DNA of 33,677 nucleotides from NCBI GenBank assembly GCA_003216575.1, contig QCIR01000015.1, positions 1 through 33,677 of the forward strand, given 5' to 3'. The DNA is from Prochlorococcus sp. AG-402-M23. Lineage in GTDB: Bacteria; Cyanobacteriota; Cyanobacteriia; PCC-6307; Cyanobiaceae. The notes below the pieces were generated by a model, which made no database searches, was not told the origin of the DNA, and saw only the letters and a list, made by a program, of their open reading frames with translations. Shown here in pieces: positions 6,237-26,042 of this stretch. Position numbers and translations under genes: made by a program. The stretch's first letter is position 1. Every line of letters starts with the position of its first letter.

Positions 6237-6524
6237 ATACTACTTTTATTTTTATATTAAAGTCTTTGCCATACTCGAACCTTTTTTGCTATTCATAAAC
6301 GTTTATCTTATTTAAATAATCCTTTTGGAATAGTCAAAAGACCTTTTACTAACTAATAGATCTTATTTTGAATCTCCAAGGGATTTGATGATATTATCAA
6401 TATATTAGGGTATTTCTCAAATAACAAGAAAATGTTTGTTATTTAGTCTTCGTATTAGTAAGATTTTGTTTGAGTTGATTAAATTCTCCAGGTTTAAGCA
6501 TTTTAAATTTTTGATGAATAATAG

Positions 6525-8766: not shown

Positions 8767-9100
8767 AAACTTTGCAGGCTATACAAAAATATAAATTAAG
8801 AACATTGAAAATACTCAAAGGTCATATTGAGAAAAGAATCTACCTCTATAGTCCTATTGAAGGTGATGAAAAAATCTAATATTACTACTAAGTTTAATAA
8901 AAAACTACATTACATTCTAGTTTTTAATATAAATTAAAAGATTTTAATCTATATTATCCTTGAAAAATTAAGTGCATCCCTTCACACGATATAAAAATGT
9001 ACTAAATATTTTCATTTTTAAATTTCAAAGGGATAAGAAATATTTAGATCTAAAAGATAATAAGTATATTATATAAAAAATATGTTGGGATCTACCAGGA
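8767..9100. other. AT-rich gap, no feature recognised
   Basis: 334 bases between two minus-strand genes. It should contain the promoter of the GtrA-YdjC gene and the 3' end of the methyltransferase transcript. I see no coding pattern, RNA gene or strong hairpin. Confidence 0.4.
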
Positions 9101-9799: not shown

Positions 9800-10375
9800 A
9801 AATATTGCAAAGGTTGGTTAAGGCTTTTGTTTGGTATCGCCCTCTTAGAGCTCTGAACTTAGGCAACAATGAAACTTTGTTTCACATCATAATAGCTTAA
9901 TTTTTCAATATTAAAAAATATCGTTTTACTCCCATTTGGCAGCGAATTCCCTAAATCTATCGTTATATGAGAAATTCCAATAATTAAAGGAGGGCTCTAA
10001 TCGATTACTCTCACTTAATCCTGTGAAGGAATGCAAGTGTGTATTCTCCAATTATTGATTCAAAATAGCTACTAGAATAAACTTTAAATATTCTTAAGTA
10101 AACATAATTGACTATAGAAATCACAAGAGGTTTAATGTCATCCTGCAACAAATGGTAATTCAGATGAAGCTTTATTTCCTAAGGCTCCGCCAAAAGAATC
10201 TTTTATTTAAATCTTAATCACTTAAAATCTAAATAAAAATGATTCAAAATATTTTCTCTAAGAAATTAGGAAAAATGATGGAAATTCTACTGCCGACTTA
10301 ATAGGACTCTAAACCCCAAAAAAAGATATAATCATTTTAAATGTAAACCTACCAAAAAAAGAATAGGAGTGATAG
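9800..10375. promoter_or_regulatory. Intergenic region upstream of a TPR gene, with TATAAT promoter
   Basis: 576 bases without a convincing gene. The last part, CTCTAAACCCCAAAAAAAG then TATAAT at 10327-10332, matches the AACCCTAA..AAAGATATAAT element seen before the other TPR genes, and it ends 43 bases before the ATG. A good ribosome-binding site (TAGGAG) lies at about 10363. The rest of the conserved leader is missing. A short open stretch at 10136-10209 ending PKAPPKESFI has protein-like composition but no start and may be a gene remnant. Confidence 0.5.
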
Positions 10376-12262: not shown

Positions 12263-12507
12263 ATACCAATAAAATATAATATATATTTTACAACCTGAAT
12301 CCTTAAGATAAAAGTTCTCCATATTGCATGCAAACCTTCAAAATGTACATTTAAATTCAAGATTCATAATTAATAGCTGAAACGACTTTTTCATCATAAG
12401 CTTGAGTAACTTAAAATTAGTTCAAAAATATTTGCATAATTGAGATATCTGTATACAGTCAAATCATGGCTGCTAGCAAATCTATTAAAAAAAACATAAT
12501 AAGCTAA
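12263..12507. other. Non-coding stretch before the tRNA-Ala region
   Basis: 245 bases after the TPR/GT9 gene without a reading frame or hairpin that I can support. Together with the tRNA-derived sequences that follow, it forms a gap with no protein gene up to 13080. Confidence 0.4.
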
Positions 12508-12549
12508 TGGAGACAAGCGAACTCGAACCACTGTCCCCTACATGCCATG
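12508..12549 (-). pseudogene. Decayed 3' half of tRNA-Ala (putative attachment-site remnant)
   Basis: The 42 bases align with the 3' half of the intact tRNA-Ala at 12652-12694, with five substitutions and one missing C. They include the T-arm (TTCGAGT on the minus strand) and end exactly in the anticodon-loop core CATGCCATG (12541-12549). Beyond the core the similarity stops (AAGGGAAAATC). Without the D-arm and 5' acceptor strand it cannot form a tRNA. A break in the anticodon loop is the usual signature of a tyrosine-recombinase attachment site in a tRNA gene. Confidence 0.8.
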
Positions 12550-12605
12550 AAGGGAAAATCTCGCCTAAATCTCTTTGCATGAGAGAACTTAAGAAAAATA
12601 TCAAT

Positions 12606-12631
12606 AAAAATGCGCGCATTTTTGCGCGCAT
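12606..12631 (-). terminator. Intrinsic terminator of tRNA-Ala
   Basis: On the minus strand ATGCGCGCA, loop AAAA, TGCGCGCAT form a perfect 9-bp GC-rich stem followed by five T residues. It starts 20 bases after the 3' end of tRNA-Ala, so it ends that short transcript. It lies between the intact tRNA and the decayed 3'-half copy. Confidence 0.9.
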
Positions 12632-12651
12632 CTAAGACCTATCTACCTGTA

Positions 12652-12724
12652 TGGAGCCAAGCGGACTCGAACCGCTGACCCCCTGCATGCCATGCAGGTG
12701 CTCTACCAGCTGAGCTATGGCCCC
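12652..12724 (-). tRNA. tRNA-Ala(GGC)
   Basis: 73 nt. The acceptor GGGGCCA pairs with TGGCTCC (one G-U), with discriminator A. D-arm GCTCAGCTGGTAGAGC, anticodon stem CCTGC/GCAGG around loop ATGGCAT, giving anticodon GGC, and T-arm with TTCGAGT. CCA is not encoded. A -10-like TATAAC lies on the minus strand at 12742-12747, 18 bases upstream of the mature 5' end. This is the only complete copy among three tRNA-Ala-derived sequences in the window. The anticodon stem-loop is a perfect dyad CTGCATG-G-CATGCAG. Confidence 0.97.
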
Positions 12725-12820
12725 ATGTGTGTGTTTAACTAGTTATACCAAGCATTTTGGAAGATTCTGGTAAACCGGTGATGTTGCTTGATACCGCTTG
12801 ACATTGAATAATATAGCAAG

Positions 12821-12920
12821 ATCCCGCCACGAATCCCGCCAAAGCGGCCTAGTAATGACAAAGGCTAAATAGTTTTCTTTTCGGGTGCTATTTCGATTTG
12901 GCGGGACGAACGGCGGGATT
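12821..12920. repeat. GC-rich paired CCCGCC boxes, inverted, near left edge of putative element
   Basis: Two pairs of CCCGCC boxes stand out from the AT-rich background. On the plus strand they are at 12823-12828 and 12835-12840; on the minus strand at 12900-12905 and 12912-12917. In each pair the boxes start exactly 12 bases apart. A third pair with the same spacing and similar flanks lies at 24951-24968 near the right edge. The even spacing and the position at both ends of the tRNA-bounded segment suggest protein-binding arm sites or remnants of terminal repeats; this is inference. Confidence 0.6.
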
Positions 12921-12946
12921 GCGATCAAAACGCTTAAAGCATAATG

Positions 12947-13080
12947 GGTCTGAACTAATTACTTCCTTTTTCATATAGATCGACTACTGCTTACTACTAA
13001 GAGGATCAATTAATTTTTAAAGTCAAATTTCTAGTGCAATGTATAGTTGTCATTAATAGATCCTTTATAAAAGAATAGAT
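12947..13080 (+). promoter_or_regulatory. TPR-gene leader, diverged copy, with TATAGT -10
   Basis: It starts with GTCTGAACTAATTACTTCC, matching the first 18 or so bases of the leaders at 25309, 28049 and 33504. It keeps GATCAATT in the middle and TCCTTTATAAAA near the end. A -10-like TATAGT with upstream TG lies at 13042-13047, 33 bases before the TTG start of the TPR/GT41 gene. The central part is diverged. No strong Shine-Dalgarno precedes the start. Confidence 0.6.
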
Positions 13081-15333
13081 TTGAGTGAGGGAAGAAATCA
13101 AAAGAAAGAAAGAACTGAGGTGAAAACATTCTCAGTTCCATTTGCTTTAGAAGAAATTAAAGAGAATATTACTATTAATACCGATACTAATTATCAACTT
13201 TCTAAAGAAGAAATAATTAAAAAGGCATTTCAATTTGATACTCAAGGCAACACTATAGAAGCAGCAAAATTGTATCAAATTTGTATTAATCAAGGATTCA
13301 AGGATTACAGAGTTTTTTCGAATTATGGAGTGATTCTAAAAAATCTTGGCAAATTAGAAGAAGCAGAATTATCCACTCGAAAAGCGATTGAACTGAATCC
13401 TGATTTAGCTCAAGCTCATTCCAATTTGGGTGTCTTATTGAATGATCTAGGCAAATTACAAGAAGCAGAATTGTCATATCGTAAAGCACTTGAACTGAAT
13501 CCTGATTTCGCAATGGCTCATTACAATCTGGGAAATGTATTAAGAGATCTAGGCAAATTACAAGAAGCAGAATTGTCATATCGTAAAGCACTTGAACTGA
13601 ATCCTGATTACGCAGAGGTTCATTCCAATTTAGGTGTCTTATTGAATGATCTAGGCAAATTACAAGAAGCAGAAATCTCCACTCACAAAGCAATTGAACT
13701 TAAACCTAATTTCTCTGAAGCGCATTACAATCTGGGAAATATATTGAGAGATCTTGGTAACTTACAAGGAGCAGAATTGTCATATCTCAAAGCGATTGAA
13801 CTCAATCCAAATTTCACAGATGCTCATTCGAATTTGGGTGCCTTATTGAATGATCTAGGCAAAGAAAAAGATGCGATGAAACACCACAATTTAGCTTTAG
13901 AAAAGAAACAAAATAATATTTTCTTTTTTGTGAATTCCAAATTGAAATTATCACCAATAATGAATAATAACGAACAGATAGATACTGAGCGTGAAGAATA
14001 CAAAAGACAATTAGAAAAAATAAAGGATAATAACAATATTCATTATGAAAGCACAAACCTTTTTAATCCAAATATTTTCTACCTTGCTTATCACAATAGA
14101 TTAGATGACAAGGTTATTCTCGAAAAATTTAGTGATACAATATCCAAAGTTAAAGGAGTTATGTTTAAAGATTTTTCGATAAAAAATTATCTTGCCACTT
14201 CATCAAAAAGAACTAATTTAAAGTTAGGTATATGCTCTGAATTTCTTAGAGAGAATCATACCATAGGCAAATTATACACAAAAGTTCTCATAGATTTATT
14301 AAAAACTGATATTGAAGTTAGCATTTATATTCCGCCTAATACTATAAGAGACTCAGGTCTAGATCTTATTGAAAATAATTTTAAAAGAGTGATCTATCTT
14401 CCAAAGTCAACAGATAAAGCAAGCAAAATTATATTTTCCGACAACCTAGATATTTTATTTTATCCCGATATTGGTATGTCGAACTATACATATATTCTTG
14501 CATTATCAAGATTAGCTTTAGTTCAAGTGACCAGCTTAGGCCATCCAAATACAACGGGAATTAAAAATATTGATTATTTTATAACTACCGAAAAGTGCTC
14601 TCAAAGGAATGATTCATTTTATTCAGAACGTTTAATAAAATTTAGCAGATTACCATTCAATTATTCAATACCTAAAATCGAAAAAGATAATACTAATCAA
14701 AAAAATCTAATAGGTTTGGAAGAAAATTTCAAAATAGGGCTTACTCAAACTTTGTTTAAGTTACACCCAGATTACGATAAAATATTAGAGTCAATATTAA
14801 TGAAAATTCAGAGTTCATATTTAATCATTATAAAAGACAAGTACAATTACATAACTGAGGCATTAAAGAAAAGATGGGAAGAGAAAAGTAATTTGCTAAT
14901 AGAAAGATCTATTTTCCTAGACAGAATGAGTAAACATGATTTCATAAATACTATTAGCAAATTCGATATTATGCTTGATCCATTTTATTTTGGCAGTGGA
15001 AATACTTTCTATGAAGCAATGACCTTTGGGACGCCATTTATTACTTATACTTTAAATCAAGCCGCGAGCGCTGTAGCTGCGGGCTACAAGCAAATGCGAG
15101 TAGATAATCCACCAATTGCTTCGTCACCCGAAGATTATATAAACTGGTGCTCTAAATACGCTAATGATAGTTTATTACTAGAAAGTACAAAAAAAGATTT
15201 ATCAGATAAGGCTAGAAAGTATTTATTTAATGATCAAACAATATATAAGGAATATTATTCTTTTTTTAATGATGCTGTCAAAAATTCACGTATAGGAAAG
15301 TTCCTAAAGAAGGGTTGGAAAGCAAGTTATTGA
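13081..15333 (+). CDS. TPR protein with O-GlcNAc-transferase-like (GT41/SPINDLY) C-terminal domain
   Basis: 750 residues. The TTG start is supported by the family tag right behind it (EVKTFSVPFALEEIKENIT) and by the leader spacing. TPRs of 34 residues run from about 76 to 285 (six units), highly regular (LGKLQEAELSYRKALELNP). After a linker of about 90 residues, the GT41 part starts near 375 with LKLGICSEFL. It includes TSLGHPNTTGIKNIDYFI (about 483) and MLDPFYFGSGNTFYEAMTFGTP (about 632), equivalents of the UDP-GlcNAc-binding segments of OGT. Bacterial members glycosylate proteins or unknown acceptors. The DNA contains two identical 64-bp blocks 102 bp apart (13444-13507 and 13546-13609). 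Confidence 0.9.
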   Translation: MSEGRNQKKERTEVKTFSVPFALEEIKENITINTDTNYQLSKEEIIKKAFQFDTQGNTIEAAKLYQICINQGFKDYRVFSNYGVILKNLGKLEEAELSTRKAIELNPDLAQAHSNLGVLLNDLGKLQEAELSYRKALELNPDFAMAHYNLGNVLRDLGKLQEAELSYRKALELNPDYAEVHSNLGVLLNDLGKLQEAEISTHKAIELKPNFSEAHYNLGNILRDLGNLQGAELSYLKAIELNPNFTDAHSNLGALLNDLGKEKDAMKHHNLALEKKQNNIFFFVNSKLKLSPIMNNNEQIDTEREEYKRQLEKIKDNNNIHYESTNLFNPNIFYLAYHNRLDDKVILEKFSDTISKVKGVMFKDFSIKNYLATSSKRTNLKLGICSEFLRENHTIGKLYTKVLIDLLKTDIEVSIYIPPNTIRDSGLDLIENNFKRVIYLPKSTDKASKIIFSDNLDILFYPDIGMSNYTYILALSRLALVQVTSLGHPNTTGIKNIDYFITTEKCSQRNDSFYSERLIKFSRLPFNYSIPKIEKDNTNQKNLIGLEENFKIGLTQTLFKLHPDYDKILESILMKIQSSYLIIIKDKYNYITEALKKRWEEKSNLLIERSIFLDRMSKHDFINTISKFDIMLDPFYFGSGNTFYEAMTFGTPFITYTLNQAASAVAAGYKQMRVDNPPIASSPEDYINWCSKYANDSLLLESTKKDLSDKARKYLFNDQTIYKEYYSFFNDAVKNSRIGKFLKKGWKASY
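13444..13609 (+). repeat. 102-bp tandem DNA repeats encoding TPR units
   Basis: Positions 13444-13507 and 13546-13609 are identical over 64 bp at an offset of 102 bp, one TPR unit. A further partial copy begins at 13648 and shares GATCTAGGCAAATTACAAG. Identity at the DNA level, not only the protein level, points to recent duplication or gene conversion and makes TPR copy number prone to change. Confidence 0.85.
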
Positions 15334-15366
15334 AAACATATTAAACAAAAATCAACTTTATCTAAA

Positions 15367-16317
15367 TTAATTATCAAAAAAGTTCTTTCTAAAATAAATA
15401 CATGTTTTTTCAATCCCCTCATTAAAATTTATTTTGGGTTTCCATTTCAACTTTTGGTAAGCTAAATCAATCAAAGGTTTCCTTCTGAAAGGATCATCTA
15501 ATGGTTTTTCTAAATACTCAAATTTTTCAACATTATTAAATTTATTATTAATAATTTTTGCGACTTGGTTAATAGTCATTTCATCTGGATTACCAATATT
15601 GACAGGAAAACTATAAGAACTATTCATAAGTCTTATTAACCCATCAACCAAATCATCTACATAACAAAAACTTCTTGTCTGAGATCCATCACCATAAATA
15701 GTCAATTTTTTTTTATTCATTGCTTGTACGATGAAATTGCTAATGACTCTTCCATCATTGGGTAACATTCTGGGACCATAAGTATTAAATATCCTCGCGA
15801 TTCTAATTTGTGTATTATTCATTCTCTTGTAGTCACTACAGAGTGTTTCTGAAATACGTTTACCCTCGTCGTAGCAACTTCTAACACCAATTGTGTTTAC
15901 ACATCCCGCATAGCTTTCAGGTTGAGGATTCAATTCTGGATTTCCATAGACTTCACTTGAACTAGCCAATAAAAATCTTGCCTCAACTCTTCTAGCTAAT
16001 CCCAACATATTGTATGTTCCAAGAAAGCTAGTTTTGGCAGTTTTAATAGGATTAAATTGATAATGAACAGGAGATGCGGGACAAGCAAGATGCCAAATCC
16101 TGTCTACTTCTAAAAGAATTGGCTCGGTCACATCATGTCTGATCAACTCAAAATAAGGATTATCTATCCAATGCTCCAAATTCCTTTTTCTTCCTGTGAA
16201 GAAATTATCAATACATATCACTTCCTCTCCTGCTTTCATAAGGCGATCAACCAAGTGAGAGCCTAAAAAACCAGCTCCTCCTGTAACTAAATTTCGAATA
16301 GGAGAAGAAGTTTTCAT
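15367..16317 (-). CDS. uxs: UDP-glucuronate decarboxylase-like NAD-dependent sugar dehydratase/epimerase
   Basis: 316 residues from ATG, with an AAGGAT ribosome-binding site. It is an extended short-chain dehydrogenase: NAD-binding GGAGFLGSHLVDRL (13-26), DNFFTGRKRNLEHW, HLACPASPVHYQ (77-87), Y149-x3-K153 in SCYDEGKR, ARIFNTYGPRM and GDGSQTRSFCYVDDLV. The combination ACPASPVHYQ plus GRKRN is typical of UXS, which makes UDP-xylose from UDP-glucuronate in the cytoplasm. UDP-apiose/4-keto-pentose relatives share these motifs, so the exact product is not certain. It probably provides a pentose donor for the transferases nearby. Confidence 0.88.
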   Translation of the reverse strand: MKTSSPIRNLVTGGAGFLGSHLVDRLMKAGEEVICIDNFFTGRKRNLEHWIDNPYFELIRHDVTEPILLEVDRIWHLACPASPVHYQFNPIKTAKTSFLGTYNMLGLARRVEARFLLASSSEVYGNPELNPQPESYAGCVNTIGVRSCYDEGKRISETLCSDYKRMNNTQIRIARIFNTYGPRMLPNDGRVISNFIVQAMNKKKLTIYGDGSQTRSFCYVDDLVDGLIRLMNSSYSFPVNIGNPDEMTINQVAKIINNKFNNVEKFEYLEKPLDDPFRRKPLIDLAYQKLKWKPKINFNEGIEKTCIYFRKNFFDN

Positions 16318-16649
16318 ATATTTAATCCTTTATAAAGTTTCATACTTAAATTCTTTGGAAGTTTTCTCAAATAATTATCCTCTCTTTTATCCCTTAAGAC
16401 AAATAAAAATTTTTTAGCTATCTAGCATTCACAATATCTCCCACTACTTTAATATTAATAATACATAAAAAGTAGAGTTGTAATTACATATTTGAATGGC
16501 TTTAAATTCTTACTATATATGAATAGTTTATGATTTTATCTTGCCTTGAAAAATCATAGAATGAAAATAAATATCCTTTTGCCATTTGAGTATTGTAACG
16601 ATTTTCAATATCATTACAATGAAAGTTAGCTTGCCAGAGAATAAAGCCA
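16318..16649. other. Divergent promoter region
   Basis: 332 bases between the divergently transcribed UXS-like gene and the zinc-finger methyltransferase gene. Both promoters must lie here, but I cannot assign boxes with confidence. No RNA gene or repeat is seen. Confidence 0.4.
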
Positions 16650-17849
16650 TTGAAATACCTAGAAAAGAAATGTCCTATTTGTGGATATTCAATTGCAAAA
16701 AGTTTTTTTGATTCAGGTGAAAAGACTCTTTCAACAATAGTCTGGGCTGAATCCAAGCAAGAAGCCATTACACTAGAAAAATATAATCAGGAATATATTC
16801 AATGTTTAAATTGCACACATATTTGGAATCATCTTTTTGACTGGAATGAAATTCCTTACGACAAGAAGTCAAACAAAATGTTTAATAATGGTTCTAATTG
16901 GAAAAAACATCTCAACTATCTTGGCGAATGGTTATCTGAGAAATTAACTGATAAACCAACCATAATTGAGATAGGTTGCGGAAATGGACATTTCCTTCAA
17001 AGATTATCTTCTTTCTATAAAGGTAACTTTATAGGATTTGATCCTTCAGGGGACATAAATGAAAGTGATTCATCAATTACTTTCTATAAATCTTTATTTG
17101 AGCCCAAAAAAGATATTCCAAAATATAAACCTAATTTAATAATTATGAGACATTTACTTGAACATCTGTCAGAACCATCTTCATTCTTACAATCTATGTC
17201 TTGGGCTGTTCATTCTCAAAATATAGAGACATATTTATTTTGTGAAGTACCATGTATTGACAAAGTATTTGAAACTGCAAGAATTTCTGATTTCTATTAT
17301 GAGCACCCATCACAATTCTCAGCAAAATCATTTATAACATTAATGAAGTCTTGTGGAGAAATAATTGATATAAAGAAATTATACGGGGGGGAGGTTATTT
17401 GCGGTTTAATAAAATTAAAGCCAAAACAAAAGCAATTAGATATTGATCTTTTAGCTGAAGAAATTTCGAAAAAGATCGCATCTGGATTAACTGAAATTCC
17501 TAAAAAATTATCTTATTTAGTTTCCACAGGGAAAAGAATTGCAATATGGGGAGGAACTGGCAAGTGTGCTGCTTTCATGCATCATTACAATGTATCTGAA
17601 AAAGATTTTCCAATAGTCGTTGACTCTGATTCTCGAAAAGTTGGAACCTTTGTTCCAGGAGTTGGACAGGAAATCCTTCCAGCTAAATATTTGATTGAAA
17701 ATCCTGTAGAGATATTGATTATTCCAACACAATGGCGTGCAAAAGATATCCTTAAAGAAGCAGATAGTTTAAATTTAAATTTCGAATTAGTTTTAATTGA
17801 ACATAATGGTAAATTACTAGATTTCTATAATTCAAATCACCCTTACTAA
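16650..17849 (+). CDS. Zinc-finger sugar C-methyltransferase-like protein (Methyltransf_13/14 architecture)
   Basis: 399 residues from TTG 16650; an in-frame stop lies at 16620-16622 and no earlier start exists. C8-x2-C11 (KCPICG) and C52-x2-C55 (QCLNC) form the N-terminal zinc site. The SAM domain has TIIEIGCGNGHFLQRL (about 104-119) and RHLLEHLSEPSSFL. The C-terminal third carries GKRIAIWGGTGKCAAFM (about 292-308) and VVDSDSRKVGTFVPG, the putative helper domain of the TylC3/NovU-type C-methyltransferases. Those enzymes methylate a nucleotide-linked keto-sugar. A branched deoxysugar product is inferred. Confidence 0.88.
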   Translation: MKYLEKKCPICGYSIAKSFFDSGEKTLSTIVWAESKQEAITLEKYNQEYIQCLNCTHIWNHLFDWNEIPYDKKSNKMFNNGSNWKKHLNYLGEWLSEKLTDKPTIIEIGCGNGHFLQRLSSFYKGNFIGFDPSGDINESDSSITFYKSLFEPKKDIPKYKPNLIIMRHLLEHLSEPSSFLQSMSWAVHSQNIETYLFCEVPCIDKVFETARISDFYYEHPSQFSAKSFITLMKSCGEIIDIKKLYGGEVICGLIKLKPKQKQLDIDLLAEEISKKIASGLTEIPKKLSYLVSTGKRIAIWGGTGKCAAFMHHYNVSEKDFPIVVDSDSRKVGTFVPGVGQEILPAKYLIENPVEILIIPTQWRAKDILKEADSLNLNFELVLIEHNGKLLDFYNSNHPY

Positions 17850-17920
17850 TTAAATACTTTATTCAATATAATAAATAGTTTAAATTAATTATTATATTGA
17901 TTATATTATTATTTTATTTG

Positions 17921-18712
17921 TCATTCACCAATAATTGCATATGACATACAGGTAGCATACGAAAAACGTTTAAGATTTAAATTATTTAATCCAATAGCTT
18001 CCATTGCAGCTATAGTTTCTCCAGGGAATTGTCTCATATTAAGCTCATCAAAAACAATAACTGCACCTTTTGGCATTCTTGGAACTAATAATTCCAAAGC
18101 AACTTTAGTAGGTTCATATAAATCGACATCAAGATGTAATAGAGAAACAACTAGATGCGGATTATCTTTTAAATAATTTGGTAAAGTTTTTAAAAGATCA
18201 CCTTTAATTAACTTTAATTTTGGAATATGTCCCAGAAATCTAGTCTTATCAGCTATCGAAGTTGATTCTAAAATATCCTCTTTCATACCAGATTCAACTT
18301 GGAATCCACCCTTTTTTGTATGCTCACTAAGTATTTCAGTGTTAATATCATTTTCAGATATTTCAGGAAACCCCTCAAAAGTATCAAATCCAATTATTTC
18401 CCTCAGGTAATTAGTAGGTTCATATATTGAACTTAAATGATACCAAGCCATTAAACTTGCACCTCTTGCAACGCCCATCTCAACTATTGAACCATTAATA
18501 CCTAGTTGCTTTTGAAAGATTTCATTACGCGTCAAAAATTTAGTTAATGATTCTCTTGTTACATATTTTGTGAAATTTTCTAATTTAACATTATTACTTC
18601 CTGGACTTCGAGTGTAATATTTTTCATACTCTGATAAGGATTCAAAGTTTTTCTTATTTTGACGTGAACTTTCACGAATCATTCCTTTCAAAACTTCTTT
18701 TTTTTCTATCAT
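17921..18712 (-). CDS. TylF/MycF-like O-methyltransferase
   Basis: 263 residues from ATG. SIVEMGVARGASLMAW (75-90) is the SAM-binding segment, followed by GFDTFEGFPE (108-117), KLIKGDLLKTLPNYL, LLHLDVDLYEPTKVAL (191-206, metal D195/D197) and VIVFDELNMRQFPGE (218-232, D222). This is the motif order of the TylF/MycF family of metal-dependent macrocin-type sugar O-methyltransferases, also common in polysaccharide clusters. It follows the PhyH gene on the same strand with a 15-base gap, so the two are probably co-transcribed. A likely role is O-methylation of a surface sugar. Confidence 0.88.
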   Translation of the reverse strand: MIEKKEVLKGMIRESSRQNKKNFESLSEYEKYYTRSPGSNNVKLENFTKYVTRESLTKFLTRNEIFQKQLGINGSIVEMGVARGASLMAWYHLSSIYEPTNYLREIIGFDTFEGFPEISENDINTEILSEHTKKGGFQVESGMKEDILESTSIADKTRFLGHIPKLKLIKGDLLKTLPNYLKDNPHLVVSLLHLDVDLYEPTKVALELLVPRMPKGAVIVFDELNMRQFPGETIAAMEAIGLNNLNLKRFSYATCMSYAIIGE

Positions 18713-18727
18713 TTTTCCCTGTAATAA

Positions 18728-19519
18728 TTACTTTTCTTTTGAGTTTATAGCTTTGAGACCTTCTATTGATAGATCTTCCCAAACCCATCCACGTTGCTTA
18801 AAGAATCTATCGTTTAGGTCACTATAACGAATTGTTATTGCAAATCGTACATCGGTAGATTTGTTGACTCCAGCAGAGTGAGGTGTCAAGCCATTAAAAA
18901 GTAATAAGTCTCCTGCATTTAGTTTAAGCTGCTTAATGTTCTTGAATTTGTTTATTTTCTCATCAGGGATGGAAAGCCATTTATTATTTTTCCTTATTTT
19001 TTCATGAGGCATTAGTCCATTCTTATGTTCACCAACTCCAATTTTTATCATCCCATTATTTTCATCAGAAAATTGTAGGGGGATATACGCAACAAGATGA
19101 TTAGACTGATTATAGAAACCATCTTGATGCCACAGTGCCAAGTGCCATAAGTCTTTTGGCATAGCCATAATTATATTAATACGCGAATGGATGGCTATAT
19201 TCTGAGATAAAATTTCTCTTGCAATACTAATAAGAGTATTAGATGAGGCAAGTTGATGAATAAAGGGCATACGAGTTGCCTGATCATAAATATAGCCTTG
19301 CAACTTTTTATTTATAGCATCAAGCTTTATAAGGTTCTGCGAGAGAAGCCTATAACTGTCTTCGTAATATTGCATTTCAGTGCTATGGAGATTCAATTGT
19401 TGTTCAACTAACCATGCAAGTTGCAATGAATAATAACTGATATCACTTTGAGAAATAAAATCTCTAATTACACAATATCCATATTTTTCATATTCTTCTT
19501 TCTTTAATTCGTTAATCAC
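18728..19519 (-). CDS. Phytanoyl-CoA dioxygenase (PhyH) family oxygenase
   Basis: 263 residues from a GTG start. The Fe(II)/2-oxoglutarate facial triad is visible: H131-x-D133 in LALWHQDGFYN and H214 in LTPHSAGVNKS, with R225 and R231 as candidates for binding the 2-oxoglutarate carboxylate. AGDLLLFNG precedes the distal histidine, as usual. Members hydroxylate lipids, sugars or small metabolites; the substrate here is unknown. It lies immediately upstream of the TylF-like gene, so hydroxylation followed by methylation of the same surface sugar is a reasonable but unproven idea. Confidence 0.87.
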   Translation of the reverse strand: MINELKKEEYEKYGYCVIRDFISQSDISYYSLQLAWLVEQQLNLHSTEMQYYEDSYRLLSQNLIKLDAINKKLQGYIYDQATRMPFIHQLASSNTLISIAREILSQNIAIHSRINIIMAMPKDLWHLALWHQDGFYNQSNHLVAYIPLQFSDENNGMIKIGVGEHKNGLMPHEKIRKNNKWLSIPDEKINKFKNIKQLKLNAGDLLLFNGLTPHSAGVNKSTDVRFAITIRYSDLNDRFFKQRGWVWEDLSIEGLKAINSKEK

Positions 19520-19685
19520 AAATTTTAATCATTATTTAAATAATGATAATAATAATATCAGAAAATCAATCAAATAGATCTCTAGGTAAATTTTTCAGGA
19601 CTTTTTGTGCGATCAAAGTCATAGAAATATTATTTTTAGGTAAAAAATACAATTAATCTAAAAAGAAAAGACTATGTCCTAATTT

Positions 19686-20432
19686 TCATCCTTGCATACA
19701 TCGAATTTCTAAACTAATTCGGTTCTTTCTCATGTCCTTAGTCATATAAGTACGATGCACAGTGAAGTTAGAAAAAAACAACACATCGCCTACACAAATT
19801 TCGGGAGTCCAGATTTTTTCGCCGTCGAAATTTGATTTAATAAAATCTGCACTTAACTCAATATTTTGATATGGAGTAGCTGTAGGATTATTAAAATCTT
19901 CAGGTTTAATAAAAGCATTTAAAGGTTTAACTATAAGCTGTAAACCAGGAGAATCAACACCACAAGTTGTTAGAGGAACCCAAGAATTGATAATCAATGA
20001 ATTGAATGGAAGAAAGCTACAATCTTGATGAAAAGGAGTAGGCTCAAAATTTAACTTATCATTACAAACTTGCCTTCTTACTAATGAATAACCTGAAAGG
20101 ATATTTATTTTTTTGGAGAATATCGAACTATATAAACCAGGAATTTTAGAATGAATAAAAAATTTTGATAATATATTCTCTCCATTAGGTTCATTTAAAT
20201 CTGAAAGTGGAATATGACCAAATTCAAATTGTTGAGAAAAATGATCATCATTTGATCGATTGAGATATTGCGCTTCCCTAATCAAATAAGAATTTTTAGC
20301 CCTATCATTAATTTCTAATAAAAGAGATGGATCTATTAATTTCCTAACTAAAACGACACCATTTTGAATAAAAATATCCATAAATTTATTTGCATCAATA
20401 TCAATACAGTTAAAATCGGGAAAATGACGCAT
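19686..20432 (-). CDS. Second PhyH-family oxygenase
   Basis: About 248 residues from ATG 20432 (MRHFPDF). A longer in-frame start at 20507 would add a 25-residue hydrophobic stretch that I regard as unlikely. The iron site reads TPFHQDCSFLPF (H135, D137) and TVHRTYM (H226), with R238 as a 2-oxoglutarate anchor. INSWVPLTTCGVDSPGLQLIV is the usual PhyH double-strand segment. Similarity to the neighbouring PhyH protein is limited, so these are two distinct family members rather than a recent duplication. It is divergent from the glycosyltransferase gene at 20519. Confidence 0.85.
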   Translation of the reverse strand: MRHFPDFNCIDIDANKFMDIFIQNGVVLVRKLIDPSLLLEINDRAKNSYLIREAQYLNRSNDDHFSQQFEFGHIPLSDLNEPNGENILSKFFIHSKIPGLYSSIFSKKINILSGYSLVRRQVCNDKLNFEPTPFHQDCSFLPFNSLIINSWVPLTTCGVDSPGLQLIVKPLNAFIKPEDFNNPTATPYQNIELSADFIKSNFDGEKIWTPEICVGDVLFFSNFTVHRTYMTKDMRKNRISLEIRCMQG

Positions 20433-20518
20433 AAAAAAATACAGTGTAAAATGTATAAAAAATGCTAGCTTGTATAGTATATGATATACAAAAATTGATT
20501 TATACAAATATATAGAAA

Positions 20519-21409
20519 ATGAGATTTAATATATGCAAAATTTATCCGAAAAATTATCAACACTCTAGTTGCTTCGATGATTTATCTAGTCTTTTATGTT
20601 TTGGGATCATAGATGCAGGATATAAATGTACTTTGAGTACTAATAAATTGAATGGTGATTGTATAAATATCATAATTGGATCCCATCTATTATCGGAAAA
20701 AGATATCATCATATTGAATAGAGCCTTAGACAGAAAGAAAATTATATATCTAAATACAGAGCAACTAAATTATACAAGAGTTGAATGGCTTAAGACAATT
20801 ACATCAATTGCAAGCAAAAAAAACGTTTTATGGGATTACAGTAAATCAAACATAAATTATTTAAAAAAATATAATCCTAATATTGAAGTTTTATTTTTAA
20901 AGATTGGATATAATAAAAATCTGCAGAAGATTAAAATAAAAAATTATGAAGAAAGAAATATAGACTTTTTATTTTACGGCTCTACAAATAAAAGAAGGGT
21001 GGAAATACTTAATAGCTTAATACATAATGGAGTAAAGTTAAAACAAGTATTTGGCGTTTATGGCAAGGAACTTGATGAAATAATAAGTGATTCGAAGTTT
21101 GTCTTAAATCTTCATTATTACGAATCCAAAATCCTTGAATCAATAAGATTGTTTTACCTAATTACAAACAAGATACCGATTCTTACAGAAATATCTGATA
21201 AAACAGTAGACGACCAGGACTTTAAAGATTTCACATACCACGCAAAATATGAAAATTTAACAGATAAATGTATTGAATTGCTAAATAGTGATTTTAAAAT
21301 AATTATGGAGGAAACACAGCTAAAAAATAATAAATTTAAGACCAGGAGTCAAGAAAAAATAATGACTGATCTAATTAGAGAAACAATATTGATATTTGAA
21401 TCTTTTTAA
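20519..21409 (+). CDS. Putative CgeB-like glycosyltransferase
   Basis: 296 residues from ATG. The second half is characteristic of a GT-B family often annotated as CgeB-like or glycosyltransferase group 1: NIDFLFYGSTNKRRVEIL, VKLKQVFGVYGKELDEII, SKFVLNLHYYESKILESIR and NKIPILTE. The glutamate in HYYES may be catalytic or sugar-binding by analogy. The first half has a weak Rossmann pattern (INIIIGSHLLSEKDI). Donor and acceptor are unknown. Its promoter is in the 86-base gap shared with the divergent PhyH gene. Confidence 0.65.
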   Translation: MRFNICKIYPKNYQHSSCFDDLSSLLCFGIIDAGYKCTLSTNKLNGDCINIIIGSHLLSEKDIIILNRALDRKKIIYLNTEQLNYTRVEWLKTITSIASKKNVLWDYSKSNINYLKKYNPNIEVLFLKIGYNKNLQKIKIKNYEERNIDFLFYGSTNKRRVEILNSLIHNGVKLKQVFGVYGKELDEIISDSKFVLNLHYYESKILESIRLFYLITNKIPILTEISDKTVDDQDFKDFTYHAKYENLTDKCIELLNSDFKIIMEETQLKNNKFKTRSQEKIMTDLIRETILIFESF

Positions 21410-21560
21410 ATAATCTCTCCTACTATATTTATATAAAATACTTCAATTTATTTATAAAATTAACTTCAATAAAGTATAAATTTATCATTATTATCAAATA
21501 AAATTTAAGCTATTTAAATATATAATAAAAGGCTTTATATGTGTATTAGATATTGAGGAC

Positions 21561-23969
21561 CTAATTTGGTTTTATAGTATATAAAATACGATGTGGTCCA
21601 TCTATCTCAATCTTATTCCAAATCACACCATAAGATTTTATTGCATTTTCAAAATTAACTATATTATACTCTTCATCTATTGAAGATTTATTTCTTTTAA
21701 TATGATTGAAAATTTTTATCGCATCATCCTCGGGATCTACCCATTCGATTAGCAAAAACTTATCTGTAAAGTTTATTAAATACGAAATTATTTTACTAAA
21801 ATCATGGAATGATGATGTTAAGTTGAATATCCAATGAATCAAAGCACCGCAGTAAATTATATCAATCTTCTTATTCTTAATAAATTTATCTAAAGAATCA
21901 CCAAAATTAAATTCAAATGATATCAATCTTCCATTTAAGTTTAAAACTTTTGTAATTAGATCTACTATTTCAAGATATTGAACATCATGATCAAAGCAAA
22001 ACACTTTATCAAAACCAGAACTTAATGCAATAAGTCCAGCTAATCCTGAGTTACATCCAATATCTGCTATAATCCTACAATTATGATTAATACTATAGCT
22101 TTTAAAAATCTTAGATAATCTCTTAAATTTTTGATATTTATGATTAATTATTATCTCTTTAGTTTCTCTATTGATATTGAAAAATTGATACCCTTTCACT
22201 TCAATAAGGTAAGGTGTAATCTTGATCTCAGGAGATTCTTTTTGTGAACCGGTTTTCCTCTGGGGATCAATATAACTACTTTTAGAATTTTTATTATTAA
22301 AACACGTCTTATCTTCTATTAAACTATTTTGAAATACTTTTTCCATAGATTCATAATGCATAATTAGTTCATTTGTTAAGTCCTCTGATGAAATTGTATT
22401 AAAAGATAACTTCAATAAATCAATAATTTTGTTATCATCTATTTTAATTCCAAACCGTTTAACATTTACTATAAATGATAATATTCCTCTATAAACTAAA
22501 AAGCCAATTTGCAAATCTACAGTAGAAAACCATTCTAAATCAATGGCAATATAGTTTTCTACTGAAGAATCATCTATAAGTATATTTTTAGGGATCAAGT
22601 CTATAAATTTTTTATCTATTATCTTATTAATATTAATTGAATTTATTTTTAGTATTTGAATTAAGGCTTTTTTATAATTAAGACTAAATAAATTAAAATA
22701 ATTTAATAGTTGTTCAAAAGATATATCCTGAGAAACATCCTCAAGCATAAAATTTAAAAATTTATCCTCTATGCTTTGACCATTCAAATACTTTGTTGAT
22801 TCGATTTTTCTATTGATTGTTTTATCATATTTTTCTAATCGTTCTTCTAAGACTTCAATCTCAGAATTTTTATTTATTATAAAGGTCAGTTTTTTACTCA
22901 CCCTATTAGGGCCATCGCTTCTTATGTAATAACCTAGAGTATTATTCATTGATATAAGCAAATCATTTTTTTGCTTTGAGATAATTGTAAGGAAACTTCC
23001 TGAGAAATTTATTAGATTATGACTTTTAAATGAATTATATTTTCGAAGTGTGTAATTTAAAGACTTTATATTTTCATGGTTTCCTAAAACAGGGTCTTTA
23101 GTCATTGCATTTAAAATTAAAGATTTAGGATTGAAATTTTTCTCAATACTTCCTCTATCTGTAATAATAAAATTAGCGTATCTCCAATCAGGAAATACTC
23201 CCAGAGTGAGAAATTCACTGATTCCATTTTTATTTAATAAACTTATTAAATCTCTCTTATCAAGAAAGTTACCTGATTTGATTTTTTTAAGATTATCATA
23301 TCCCGAAAATTTATTATTAAAAGCAATATCCCGATTTGGAAAAAATGACTTGTGTCCTATTCTATTGTCTAAGGTCATGAATATAATTCCATTTGATTTT
23401 AATAATGAAAATATTGATTGTAGAAAATAATTTTTATTTAATTCTTTAAAGGATTCTTTATAATTATACTCTTCGAATCCATTAACATAAATAATATCAA
23501 ACAAAAAACTACTTCTAAAAAGAATATTAATTTCTGCACAAATTATATTTATATTCTTACAAGATTTTGTTCTTTTTTTATTTATTAAACAGTTTTCATA
23601 TGATTCATCAATTGATATTAACTCTTTGCAATTCTCAGATAGATATTTACTTATCGATCCACATTTTCCACCGATCTCTAAGACATACTTACCAATCAAA
23701 GATTCTTTAAATGGTTGTAATATGTTAGATCTACTCTTTGATAAATGATAATAACTGATCGGATCATATATTTTTTTTTCAAGTTCATCAGAACCAGTTT
23801 CTAATTTAGATGTACTTGCAATAATCTTGAATATTTTTTCTTTTGACTTTTTATTGATTCTTTCATTATTTGAAGTAGACCAAATTTGCACTTCTTCATC
23901 ATATATTAATCCAATTCTAAGTAAATATTGAGTAAGTTCATCTGTTTTACCTAATTTTTTTTCATTCAT
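21561..23969 (-). CDS. Large protein with two class I SAM methyltransferase domains
   Basis: 802 residues from ATG. The first methyltransferase domain has GKYVLEIGGKCGSISKYL (93-110), FDIIYVNGFEEYNY and SLLKSNGIIFMTLDN. The second has CRIIADIGCNSGLAGLIAL (about 625-643), VFCFDHDVQYLEIV and IDIIYCGALIHWIFNL. Between them, about 330 residues are low in recognisable motifs and may form an all-alpha spacer or acceptor-binding module. Two-headed methyltransferases occur in surface-glycan clusters, where each head caps or decorates the polymer; this is analogy only. The gene is very AT-rich and lies convergent to the CgeB-like gene. Confidence 0.8.
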   Translation of the reverse strand: MNEKKLGKTDELTQYLLRIGLIYDEEVQIWSTSNNERINKKSKEKIFKIIASTSKLETGSDELEKKIYDPISYYHLSKSRSNILQPFKESLIGKYVLEIGGKCGSISKYLSENCKELISIDESYENCLINKKRTKSCKNINIICAEINILFRSSFLFDIIYVNGFEEYNYKESFKELNKNYFLQSIFSLLKSNGIIFMTLDNRIGHKSFFPNRDIAFNNKFSGYDNLKKIKSGNFLDKRDLISLLNKNGISEFLTLGVFPDWRYANFIITDRGSIEKNFNPKSLILNAMTKDPVLGNHENIKSLNYTLRKYNSFKSHNLINFSGSFLTIISKQKNDLLISMNNTLGYYIRSDGPNRVSKKLTFIINKNSEIEVLEERLEKYDKTINRKIESTKYLNGQSIEDKFLNFMLEDVSQDISFEQLLNYFNLFSLNYKKALIQILKINSININKIIDKKFIDLIPKNILIDDSSVENYIAIDLEWFSTVDLQIGFLVYRGILSFIVNVKRFGIKIDDNKIIDLLKLSFNTISSEDLTNELIMHYESMEKVFQNSLIEDKTCFNNKNSKSSYIDPQRKTGSQKESPEIKITPYLIEVKGYQFFNINRETKEIIINHKYQKFKRLSKIFKSYSINHNCRIIADIGCNSGLAGLIALSSGFDKVFCFDHDVQYLEIVDLITKVLNLNGRLISFEFNFGDSLDKFIKNKKIDIIYCGALIHWIFNLTSSFHDFSKIISYLINFTDKFLLIEWVDPEDDAIKIFNHIKRNKSSIDEEYNIVNFENAIKSYGVIWNKIEIDGPHRILYTIKPN

Positions 23970-24293
23970 ATTAGAATCCTAGCAGTTTTTAATTACAATA
24001 GATTTTTGAAGTTTGTTCTTTCTTAAATCTTTTTAAAAGACACAGAACGACTTTATAGAAGATAAGAGGTACTTAAACTGATTAACTGTGCAAATTTTGA
24101 AGAAAAGTATTCGAAGTATTACTCCAGTATTTATTCATTCAAGGTTTTTTAACAAAATCTTAGAGCATACTAGATTTTTCTTACTCTTTTTTTTAAGAGA
24201 AATTAGCAGCTAATCCATTAAGTGAAATTATTAGACATGCATAAGGAGGCTAAACAAATTAATGAGTTATGAAAAGTTCTTTTTGAATACCTT
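23970..24293. other. Non-coding stretch, no feature recognised
   Basis: 324 bases between the two-domain methyltransferase and the small-gene trio. It should hold the promoter of the former on the minus strand. No coherent reading frame, hairpin or repeat could be supported. Confidence 0.4.
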
Positions 24294-24431
24294 CTAAATG
24301 TTTATTAGTAGTTTTGCCAGCATTTGCGGCCGCTCAATATTGATCTCTTCAAAGTCTTGAACGATCAAGTCCATTGCATTCTCTGTCATTCGCCTCGCTT
24401 GCCATCTACTTAAGCTGTATTTTTCGGACAT
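24294..24431 (-). CDS. Small protein of unknown function, third of an overlapping trio (45 aa)
   Basis: ATG at 24431 on the minus strand, stop at 24294, 45 residues: begins MSEKYSLSRWQARRM, then ENAMDLIVQDFEEINIERP. The composition is strongly protein-like, with helical heptad-like spacing. Its start lies inside the end of the preceding 38-aa frame (22-base overlap), suggesting translational coupling. It resembles small picocyanobacterial hypothetical proteins from memory; no function is known to me. It may be truncated, ending soon after LAKLLINI. Confidence 0.6.
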   Translation of the reverse strand: MSEKYSLSRWQARRMTENAMDLIVQDFEEINIERPQMLAKLLINI

Positions 24432-24526
24432 TTAGTCGTTACAAAGATGCAACTATGAACTTGAGCAAGTAGGTCAGCAGCAAAACCTGCCCTTAACTCC
24501 ATCTCTTGTTTATTAGCTTTTTTCAT
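24410..24526 (-). CDS. Small protein of unknown function, second of an overlapping trio (38 aa)
   Basis: ATG at 24526, stop at 24410, 38 residues including MELRAGFAADLLAQVHSC. The start overlaps the end of the 84-aa frame by 14 bases and its end overlaps the start of the 45-aa frame. An amphipathic helix is plausible for residues 10-25. A frameshift that has split one longer gene is the main alternative. Confidence 0.5.
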   Translation of the reverse strand: MKKANKQEMELRAGFAADLLAQVHSCIFVTTKCPKNTA

Positions 24527-24767
24527 ATTCCAGCTCGATGCAATGTAGATTCAATTCCCTCTGGAGCATGTGCCAACACAATGCCAATTCAGGAACCAAA
24601 GAAGGCATTAGATCCCAAGCTTGATTCTTTTCTATTGTTGAAAAGGCGGAAGTCATTGCTTCTGAGACAGTTAAAAAATCAGGGTGAATGACTTTAGTCA
24701 TTTGAGATTTTCTAGGCGTTGCTATTTGGCGTGAACTTATAAATTTATCAATCAAATAAGCAACCAA
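24513..24767 (-). CDS. Small protein of unknown function, first of an overlapping trio (84 aa)
   Basis: 84 residues from ATG at 24767, ending ELEYEKS. Visible segments are PRKSQMTKVIHPDFLTVSEAM and a C-terminal helix rich in L, C and E (ELALCWHMLQRELNLHCIEL). No known domain is recognised. It heads three overlapping minus-strand frames near the right edge of the tRNA-bounded segment, where an integrative element would be expected to keep its own maintenance or regulatory genes; that role is speculative. Confidence 0.5.
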   Translation of the reverse strand: MVAYLIDKFISSRQIATPRKSQMTKVIHPDFLTVSEAMTSAFSTIEKNQAWDLMPSLVPELALCWHMLQRELNLHCIELEYEKS

Positions 24768-24932
24768 AGTAATAACAAAAGTAGCTTAAAAACATAGTTA
24801 TTTCAAGTAAATTACGCCTGTTATCTAGGTTAGATTTTACGATCGTGGGCTACCCTTGGCGGCTCTTTTTTATAAAAATAGATAAAAAATAAAAGAGCTA
24901 TAATTCAGTTATATGAATAGAAGACATTAAAA

Positions 24933-24970
24933 AAGCGGGTCTATCAAAATCCCGCCACGGCTCCCGCCAT
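24933..24970 (-). repeat. CCCGCC box pair and terminator-like hairpin near right edge of putative element
   Basis: CCCGCC at 24951-24956 and 24963-24968 are 12 bases apart, matching the pairs at 12823-12840 and 12900-12917. About 30 bases align with the left plus-strand pair in the same orientation (minus strand: TGGCGGGA..CGTGGCGGGAT). On the minus strand GCGGG, an 11-nt loop and CCCGC followed by six T residues could act as an intrinsic terminator. Confidence 0.6.
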
Positions 24971-25033
24971 TTATATTCTTTTGTGTGCCTATATCTCATT
25001 GACTTCAGTACTTTACAGGGATTTGAAGTGCTT

Positions 25034-25073
25034 CATGCCATGCAGGTGCTCTACCAGCTGAGCTATGGCCCCA
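25034..25073 (-). pseudogene. Orphan 5' half of tRNA-Ala(GGC) (putative attachment-site remnant)
   Basis: All 40 bases are identical to 12686-12725: acceptor 5' strand, D-arm and 5' anticodon stem through the loop core CATGCCATG (25034-25042). Similarity stops immediately past the core on the left (TGCTT). There is no T-arm or 3' acceptor strand, so no functional tRNA. It is the mirror partner of the decayed 3' half at 12508-12549; the two share only the anticodon-loop core. Confidence 0.92.
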
Positions 25074-25147
25074 AATCGTTGATATGACTTTGATTCCTAT
25101 CAATATCATCCAACCCAACTATTATACTTCAAGAAAAGAGTGCATAA

Positions 25148-25285
25148 TTGCAACTCCTAACTACTCTCCAGGCAACGGGAGAGAAAGAAAGCAAATCAAT
25201 TGATATCAAAAGCTTTGATAAAGTTTCCAAAACTTTTCCCTCAGAGAAAGAAGTTTTACCCGTATGGAAAGCGATGGGCAATTAA
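25148..25285 (+). pseudogene. Remnant of a winged-helix gene (C-terminal part)
   Basis: The frame QLLTTLQATGEKESKSIDIKS, then FDKV, then SEKEVLP, aligns with the C-terminal part of the protein at 33153-33473 (QLLRNL, NSIDIKGFDKI, HEGKKVCP). A stop codon sits directly before it at 25145, so the DNA-binding half is lost. It ends 23 bases before a TPR leader, as the intact-looking copy ends 30 bases before the leader at 33504. Confidence 0.7.
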
Positions 25286-25308
25286 CAAAAGCAGTTGTTC
25301 ATAGTCAA

Positions 25309-25439
25309 TCTGGACTAATTACTTCCCCTCAAAGAGAAATTAACTCATGCTTATTTAAAGCGCGTCAATTTCTTTGGATAGTTCAAAACCCTAAAAAGAT
25401 ATAATTCTCATATATCGTTCCTTTATAAAGCCAATAAAT
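25309..25439 (+). promoter_or_regulatory. TPR-gene leader with TATAAT promoter
   Basis: It begins TCTGGACTAATTACTTCCCC, contains CATGCTTATTT and GTCAATTTCTTTGG, then AAAACCCTAAAAAGA directly before TATAAT (25400-25405). The GTG start is 34 bases beyond the box. It matches the leaders at 28049 and 33504 along its length. A TCCTTTATAAA element lies in the transcribed part, and there is no evident Shine-Dalgarno. A shared leader implies common control of the TPR genes. Confidence 0.75.
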
Positions 25440-26042
25440 GTGACTGAGGAAAAAAAAAACCACACACGGAACCAAAAGCAAATTGGCTATAAATTAAAAA
25501 TATTTCCAGTTCCATTTGATTTAGGAGAAATCAAAGAGAATATTACTATTAGGACTAATTACCCTTTTAAACCTTCGAAAGAAGAAATTTTTAATGAAGC
25601 ATTTAAGTTTCATTCAGAGGGAAATATTCAAGAAGCAGCCAAATATTATCAACAGTTCATCAATAGAGGTTTTAATGATCATAGAGTTTTTTCTAATTAT
25701 GGAATCATATTAAAAGACCTTGGTAAATTGCAGCAAGCAGAAGAATCTTTTCGAAAAGCAATTGAACTCAAACCAGATTTGGTAGAGGCGTATTCCAATC
25801 TTGGAAGCTTATTGAATGAACTTGGCAAATTACAAGAAGCAGAACAATCTCTGCGAAAAGCAATTGAACTTAAACCTAATTACGCAAATGCTCATTATAA
25901 TTTAGGTAAAATCCTAAAAGAACTGGGTAAATTACAAGAAGCAGAAGTATCACTACGCAATGCTATTAAACTTGATTCTGACCTCATACATGCTTATTCT
26001 TTTCTTGGAAAAATCTTACAAGAAATTGAGGAAATTTCTTAA
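25440..26042 (+). CDS. Short TPR protein coupled to carbamoyltransferase
   Basis: 200 residues from GTG (an ATG two bases earlier runs straight into TGA). The tag KLKIFPVPFDLGEIKENIT is followed by IQEAAKYYQQFINRGF and three complete TPRs plus a cut-off fourth, ending FLGKILQEIEEIS. Unlike its paralogues it has no catalytic tail; the next gene begins in the overlap TAATG. The paralogues carry enzyme domains after the array, so this looks like the split form of the same design, with the TPR part as targeting or acceptor-binding subunit for the carbamoyltransferase. Confidence 0.9.
   Translation: MTEEKKNHTRNQKQIGYKLKIFPVPFDLGEIKENITIRTNYPFKPSKEEIFNEAFKFHSEGNIQEAAKYYQQFINRGFNDHRVFSNYGIILKDLGKLQQAEESFRKAIELKPDLVEAYSNLGSLLNELGKLQEAEQSLRKAIELKPNYANAHYNLGKILKELGKLQEAEVSLRNAIKLDSDLIHAYSFLGKILQEIEEIS

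Follow-up and report, generated by a model that had tools for sequence, protein, structure and literature searches.

Tycheposons, described by Hackl and colleagues in 2023, are reportedly islands of Prochlorococcus that sit at tRNA genes, encode a divergent tyrosine recombinase and occur in cargo-bearing as well as satellite-like forms. A deep-branching tyrosine recombinase is their hallmark. Here we analyze a 33,677-bp stretch of DNA from Prochlorococcus sp. AG-402-M23 (the window, which is an entire contig), in which foreign surface-sugar genes lie beside the tRNA-Ala(GGC) gene of this marine cyanobacterium. Positions 12726-25033 very probably constitute an integrative cargo element, now devoid of its recombinase, that entered the anticodon loop of tRNA-Ala(GGC) from the upstream side. 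Judged from descriptions rather than from sequence comparison, this element is probably of the tycheposon type, and passages of four papers point to tycheposons as its natural home (PMC10872708, PMC11389934, PMC10803314, PMC12416821).

As in tycheposons, the window insertion lies at a tRNA gene in Prochlorococcus, and its glycan-modification genes represent cargo of possible ecological use. The resemblance extends to relatives: an element downstream of tRNA-Ala in genome G033 encodes a recombinase, a VapE-type helicase and a phage capsid gene, and an upstream element in G007 encodes a recombinase and a helicase. In contrast, no recombinase or replication gene was found in the window element, and Pfam detects no hallmark gene of replication or packaging among its eight cargo open reading frames and right-end gene A. 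In the available passages on Islander, an intact tRNA gene and a displaced fragment mark the ends of an island, with an anticodon-centred site in 2083 of 3919 islands and a 5' fragment in only 159 of 3919 (PMC4383910). The window element likewise carries an intact tRNA gene and a same-strand fragment at its two ends, on the correct side, but the fragment is of the rare 5' kind and the integrase tested by the Islander filter, as those passages describe it, is missing. Beyond these filters, relatives offer an empty site, on the upstream side in G008 and G028 and in a G036/G007 pair. Finally, PMC10187409 reports a picocyanobacterial integrase family that was detected by protein language models; these divergent tyrosine recombinases of Prochlorococcus and Synechococcus usually lie upstream of a tRNA and have variable cargo. 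By that description the family resembles the present one in its divergent recombinase, upstream position and variable cargo, but its integrases occur at tRNA-Phe or tRNA-Cys rather than tRNA-Ala, and they are reported there as distinct from tycheposon enzymes.

An earlier sequence-only reading of this DNA had reported an intact tRNA-Ala(GGC), a perfect 5' half and a decayed 3' half, the halves lying on the minus strand in the right order and sharing only the anticodon-loop core, and all of these features are real. ARAGORN finds a single tRNA in the window, tRNA-Ala(GGC) on the minus strand (Table 1). Local alignment with the 75-nt tRNA as query recovers the 5' half with a score of 82 (nt 1-40 identical; nt 1-43, reaching 25031, with one mismatch) and the 3' half with a score of 66, whereas the maximum in 20 Markov-shuffled windows is 28. 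Over nt 32-75 the 3' half carries five substitutions and one gap, exactly as had been counted, and the halves overlap at nt 32-40, CATGGCATG. All three copies lie on one strand, with the 5' half 12.3 kb upstream of the intact tRNA and the 3' half 100 bp downstream; no other half-tRNA match in the window exceeds the shuffles, the palindromic anticodon arm itself aside. Because the other tRNA matches in the source genome are tRNA-Ala(TGC) on contig C13 and part of tmRNA on C23, the draft holds no second GGC gene for tRNA-Ala.

We compared the surroundings of tRNA-Ala in 35 genomes, namely 30 relatives of the same genus, four others and the window. In two relatives, G012 and G032, the same ends enclose other cargo, in elements of 14.3 kb and 8.3 kb, respectively. 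Besides the right end, G012 matches the window element over 141 bp at the left (90.8%) and in no other DNA at E 1e-5, and G032 matches it over 143 bp at the left (89.5%) and otherwise only in parts of TPR genes. The displaced 5' half and its flank are themselves matched in G012 at 85% over 96 bp. On the far side of the element, the 607 bp from 25034 to 25640 can be aligned with DNA that leads into the intact tRNA in two relatives, with 470 of 629 columns identical in G008 and 460 of 623 in G028, and shorter alignments in G003 and G014 agree with this empty upstream site. An independent before-and-after pair is also preserved in relatives: the displaced 5' half of G007 together with its upstream DNA (1,471 bp), a stretch containing a recombinase with two stops, is 92.2% identical to the DNA entering the intact tRNA of G036.

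Both ends of the element bear one type of motif pair, TGGCGGGA-N4-TGGCGGGA. Paired outer repeats at fixed distances flank the core, at -141 and +79 in the window, as in substrates of lambda-type integrases. The exact pattern occurs nine times in 6 of 41 genus genomes, always at the tRNA-Ala locus and in a single orientation, and the reversed-pattern control yields no copy in these 41 genomes. Among 300 genomes of the family it is present in 11; the G083 copy also lies at tRNA-Ala, and in five genomes of other genera tRNA-Ala was not found in the 3-kb locus. When pairs are scored by set criteria (12-bp spacing) in the 35 genomes and at 12 displaced 5'-half junctions, similar pairs lie 132-144 bp from the anticodon in 17 of the 35 genomes and 77-79 bp away on the other side at 6 of the 12 junctions. 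All six upstream elements with a pair detectable at both ends agree in type between the ends (GGCGGGA in the window, G012 and G032; GGCGCA in G007; TACCGCA in G020 and one of three G033 elements), an outcome that random pairing gives 12 times in 720. An inverted copy of the window's pair lies 57 bp from the long arm, and a degraded form is visible by eye beyond the recombinase gene of G010; the inverted copy is possibly a regulatory or old attachment site.

The sequence-only reading saw no recombinase in the segment, and no working gene is indeed present, but a stub remains next to the tRNA. This stub, the matched motif pairs (12822-12841, 24950-24969) and extra DNA at 4248-12507 had all gone unnoticed. 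The stub is the only trace of an integrase gene found within the island, in contrast to the recombinase that characterizes Islander and tycheposon islands. The window follows G010 at 79% over 566 columns and then at 90% over 181 bp, and between these two blocks G010 has 1,554 bp that contain a recombinase frame of 450 aa except for its first codons. By comparison with relatives, the conserved ends, motif pairs, displaced 5' half, empty upstream site and absence of the recombinase gene relative to G010 are established at the level of sequence.

Used by itself, the Pfam integrase model lists none of the enzymes at tRNA-Ala. The recombinase family was found through a G033 match with E 3e-4, below Pfam's cut-off, in the element that also carries the phage capsid gene and the VapE-type helicase. 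The best family members of the genus lie at tRNA-Ala, where the match begins 139 (G010), 144 (G007) or 165 bp (G036) upstream. Divergent recombinases occur in G010, G007, G036, G083 and G033, and the copy in G083 is also full length. The enzymes have invariant R278, K298, R390, H391 and Y425, the tyrosine-recombinase residues, and a XerC-like profile match (6.6e-06). A structural model of the G010 enzyme (pLDDT 81.8, pTM 0.48) has XerA, lambda integrase and XerH as its best matches, with TM-scores that are low over the whole length (0.25-0.32 of query). As in heterobivalent integrases of the lambda type, the model places an N-terminal region of three strands plus a helix ahead of further helical and catalytic regions, and the sites carry outer paired repeats that the N-terminal domain would bind; the low whole-length scores set it apart from them. 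In G012, a 452-aa protein matches integrase-SAM weakly, but it was not accepted as a recombinase. The source genome encodes a distant relative (415 aa, 25% identity; G000:C6:45928-47175), and no tRNA was found in the 13 kb read around it.

Beside the tRNA, 18 of the 35 genomes carry recombinase stubs, four a full-length gene and 13 neither. The stubs comprise 23 to about 176 N-terminal residues and end before the catalytic residues; the one in G025 is weak, and G030 has additional recombinase pieces farther out. Since the sequences at the stub junctions differ among the window, G012, G032, G033 and G034, the losses look repeated.

The element would have existed as a circular form made up of a long arm, roughly the first 40 nt of the tRNA and a short arm. 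This circle would have recombined with the chromosomal tRNA-Ala gene inside CATGGCATG, by means of a G010-like tyrosine recombinase of the lambda type, which most probably is the enzyme whose gene was lost. The intact gene would thus join a 5' half and upstream region supplied by the element to a resident 3' half, while the resident 5' half would have been pushed 12.3 kb outward. Later, the recombinase gene would have been lost from about its first codons and right-end gene B broken; without the gene, the island would stay in place as long as no cognate enzyme is supplied in trans. We infer the integration step, contact of the enzyme with the motif pairs and any mobilization in trans.

Several observations weigh against this reconstruction. 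The source genome is a draft (87.88% complete), and the ends of the window are contig ends. Three of the six type-agreeing elements look related, and 6 of the 12 displaced 5'-half junctions have no motif pair by the criteria used. The long-arm pair falls within a match to a terminator-like hairpin and may have another role than attachment. A consensus promoter was found at neither junction, for which reason we only infer that the element's end replaced the tRNA promoter. The stretches of G010 that were searched contain no displaced 5' half, and this left end has thus not been seen in a complete parent element. The G010 enzyme and the element junction were not found in viral and phage collections; a motif-pattern scan of viral contigs gave at least 120 stretches.

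The halves' common strand, correct order and overlap limited to the anticodon core had suggested that a single element split the host tRNA into both halves and brought a complete tRNA-Ala of its own. Insertion into the anticodon loop and restoration of an intact gene stand; a single insertion is very improbable. The unit formed by the 3' part of the tRNA, the 100-bp spacer and the decayed 3' half is identical in 151 of 180 columns to a unit 1.3 kb downstream of the G011 tRNA. Because this unit is common to G011, whose upstream end bears another motif type than the window, the 3' half appears to predate the upstream element and would record a separate, earlier event on the downstream side. The halves would accordingly not be complementary remains of one broken tRNA, and only the new 5' half is attributable to the element. 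Moreover, of the 14 genus genomes with any halves, 10 have one kind without the other, resident upstream DNA joins the intact tRNA in G008 and G028, positions 12263-12507 have no match in 40 loci compared, and the long-arm pair is found on the upstream side of the tRNA and not past the 3' half. The empty site proposed as a check, joining 12507 to 25074 through one tRNA, was not found in the loci read. What fits instead is the alternative that the sequence-only reading had also offered, in which just the 5' half was replaced and another event occurred separately. The spacer is probably a remnant end of a downstream element, although it also reads as a terminator-like hairpin, an alternative role.

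Partial tRNA copies were counted in 46 loci (836,534 bases; 35 genomes including the window) at E up to 1e-3, a threshold that the window's own 3' half does not reach in this larger set. The 25 copies comprise 12 five-prime halves, all upstream, and 12 three-prime halves, all downstream, on the same strand as the tRNA, together with one exception, a G033 5' half in opposite orientation. Breakpoints fall at nt 36-45 (median 42) in the 5' halves and at nt 24-44 (median 32) in the 3' halves. These data bear on the explanation that site-specific integration played no part and that homologous recombination or segmental duplication copied half tRNAs within a repeat-rich island. Similar TPR genes, between which recombination could take place, abound in the island and its relatives, but 24 of 25 copies obey side and strand with breakpoints at nt 24-45, reversed and 20 shuffled tRNA queries return no copies, and tyrosine recombinase genes are located at such breakpoints; we regard this origin, too, as highly unlikely. 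Among 31 genus loci, 5' halves only are found in five (G003, G012, G031, G032, G039), 3' halves only in five (G002, G009, G011, G014, G030), both in four (the window, G007, G020, G033) and neither in 17, where neither means none within the stretch read, which differs in length among loci; the halves thus do not come in pairs. In the remaining 10 of the 41 genus genomes the best tRNA match is at most 85%, a match that in the source genome is tRNA-Ala(TGC), or there is none. On these counts the tRNA-Ala gene is a two-sided hotspot.

Two further proposals are compatible with upstream integration as the origin of the ends. One holds that the ends have been fixed since one older insertion, that cargo has been exchanged between them by homologous recombination and that the island is no longer mobile as a unit. 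The window, G012 and G032 share little beyond their ends, lack a recombinase and differ in their stub junctions, as this would predict. However, displaced halves stack in series (three in G033), and in G007 an older element with a broken recombinase has been pushed outward, so repeated integrations are needed, and we consider fixed ends unlikely as the full account; integration and cargo exchange may both act. The other, a refinement, is that the element is still moved by the cognate enzyme of another element. Both ends and their motif pairs are retained though the enzyme is gone, but the draft genome has no close enzyme, only the distant one on C6, and right-end gene B is broken; mobilization in trans is possible, if somewhat doubtful.

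A search of named genomes yields 61 recombinase loci, nearly all in Prochlorococcus, Synechococcus, Cyanobium and their kin. ARAGORN places a tRNA within 500 bp of the gene start at 34 of them; 20 have none and seven are at a contig end. The tRNAs are Thr(GGT) at 15 loci, Ala(GGC) at 11, Gly(GCC) at four, Arg(TCT) at two and 'Asn' at two, the last being taken for artefacts. Loci L302, L310 and L341 were reclassed by eye as adjoining a displaced 3' half, their ARAGORN 'tRNAs' having a foreign 5' part. With L302 so moved, tRNA-Ala is used five times from the 5' side and five from the 3' side, whereas Thr (15 of 15), Gly (4 of 4) and Arg are used from the 3' side only. In a recombinase tree of 37 rows (36 of the 61 loci and the G033 enzyme; L346 was dropped for stops, and several rows are long-branched), upstream-inserting enzymes fall in two places, a five-row group (four upstream of tRNA-Ala, one with no tRNA within reach) and G036 alone, although a single gain of upstream insertion plus losses could also underlie the pattern.

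Tentatively, and with slightly more doubt than confidence, we propose that tRNA-Ala(GGC) in this genus is a two-sided landing pad. One recombinase family would act on the anticodon arm from both directions, with the 5' half captured in upstream arrays and the 3' half in downstream ones. The attachment sites would mirror each other in spacing (about 140 and 78-89 bp), and their repeat pairs would differ among elements; islands would repeatedly shed the recombinase and keep their ends, with cargo swapped between fixed ends. Downstream elements show such mirrored spacing less often, proximal at +140 in G030 and distal at -80 to -89 in the window, G002, G011 and G030; six genomes have a different motif downstream, TTAGTGCA or TAGTGCA, at +120 to +122. 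Against the mirror, the pair is seen at few downstream junctions, and the recombinase of the G033 downstream element lies at its far, not near, end. Around GGC, the anticodon arm of tRNA-Ala(GGC) forms a perfect inverted repeat of 7 bp. This symmetry was rejected as a sufficient cause of two-sided use, since the arms of the tRNA-Thr(GGT) and tRNA-Gly(GCC) genes examined are equally symmetric and recombinases lie on their 3' side only. Among the titles and abstract beginnings surveyed, a coverage outside which most subscription papers fall, none was seen to report that tRNA-Ala is used from both sides in Prochlorococcus.

The G033 downstream element (L045:1077-9651) is satellite-like and 8.6 kb long, with its VapE-type helicase, phage capsid protein and, near a displaced 3' half, divergent tyrosine recombinase. 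In G011 (L036), a second tRNA-Ala copy (nt 1-75, 91%) lies inverted about 9.5 kb downstream of the tRNA. On the downstream side of the window, a gene pair that lies 145 (G025), 183 (G024), 237 (G022) or 252 bp (G028) from tRNA nt 1 in relatives is 8.5 kb away, and the intervening 4248-12507 is therefore also extra DNA. Because the same gene pair is on the upstream side in G007, G010, G026 and G039, inverted in G007 and G010, rearrangement evidently occurs at the island as well.

Just inside the displaced 5' halves lies a two-gene right-end module (proteins of about 62 aa and 120 aa), at 24201-24767 in the window and at L233:15701-16063, L048:7304-7666 and L044:11174-11539. The 120-aa gene B protein is 91-92% identical across three genomes, and 28 of 41 genus genomes contain a match to it, in many cases a broken one; it has no informative match, only a weak one to phrog_34910. 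TPR-like repeat genes with similar N-termini lie near island boundaries at 1106-3091, 10376-12262, 13081-15333 and 25440-26042 (two by Pfam scan, two judged from translations), and the four may provide homology for cargo exchange.

Table 1. Coordinates of features in the 33,677-bp window.
Feature	Position	Strand	Basis or remarks
Element, restored 5' half to displaced 5' half	12726..25033	.	12.3 kb; locus comparisons
Left (tRNA-side) element end	12726..12866	-	Conserved in G010, G012, G032, G033, G034 (87-91%)
Right element end, counted with 5' half	24201..25033	-	G012 85.6% over 877 columns; G032 81% over 911 columns
Intact tRNA-Ala(GGC)	12651..12725	-	ARAGORN, local alignment
Displaced 5' half of tRNA-Ala, nt 1-40	25034..25073	-	Local alignment, identical
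Decayed 3' half of tRNA-Ala, apparently from older downstream event	12508..12549	-	Alignment of nt 28-75, score 66
Long-arm motif pair TGGCGGGATTCGTGGCGGGA	12822..12841	-	Centre about 141 bp from anticodon
Short-arm motif pair TGGCGGGAGCCGTGGCGGGA	24950..24969	-	Centre about 79 bp from nt 36 of the tRNA half
Inverted copy of motif pair	12899..12918	+	One mismatch
Tyrosine recombinase N-terminal stub	12801..12881	+	aa 2-28 of G010 enzyme, 67%, one stop
Junction with 1,554 bp extra in G010	12865..12866	.	Comparison with G010
Resident upstream flank	25074..25640	-	Continuous with intact tRNA-Ala in G008, G028
Spacer with 12-bp spaced pair ATGCGCGCA at 12611-12631	12550..12650	-	Common to G011
Gene pair	3124..4247	.	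Adjoins tRNA downstream in G022, G024, G025, G028
Further variable downstream DNA	4248..12507	.	Absent between tRNA and gene pair in G022, G024, G025, G028
TPR plus GT41 glycosyltransferase	13081..15333	+	Cargo, Pfam
NAD-dependent sugar epimerase/dehydratase (UXS-like)	15367..16317	-	Cargo, Pfam
C-methyltransferase	16650..17849	+	Cargo, Pfam
TylF-like methyltransferase	17921..18712	-	Cargo, Pfam
Two PhyH-family oxygenases	18728..20507 (18728-19519, 19686-20507)	-	Cargo, Pfam
Protein of 296 aa lacking a Pfam match (+); protein of 802 aa that matches methyltransferases weakly (-)	20519..23969		Cargo
Broken right-end gene B copy	24276..24526	-	120 aa and open in G012, G007, G033
Right-end gene A	24513..24767	-	84 aa with TTG start; about 62 aa form the conserved core

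These loci provide, within one genus, a before-and-after series that shows how an abundant marine phototroph builds surface-glycan islands at one particular tRNA gene. Where an island no longer has an integrase and integrase-based searches miss it, agreement between the paired repeats of its two ends can serve as a marker of its limits. In the rare 5'-displacing arrangement, the DNA ahead of a single-copy tRNA gene would be replaced with each insertion, and the effects on its expression are testable.

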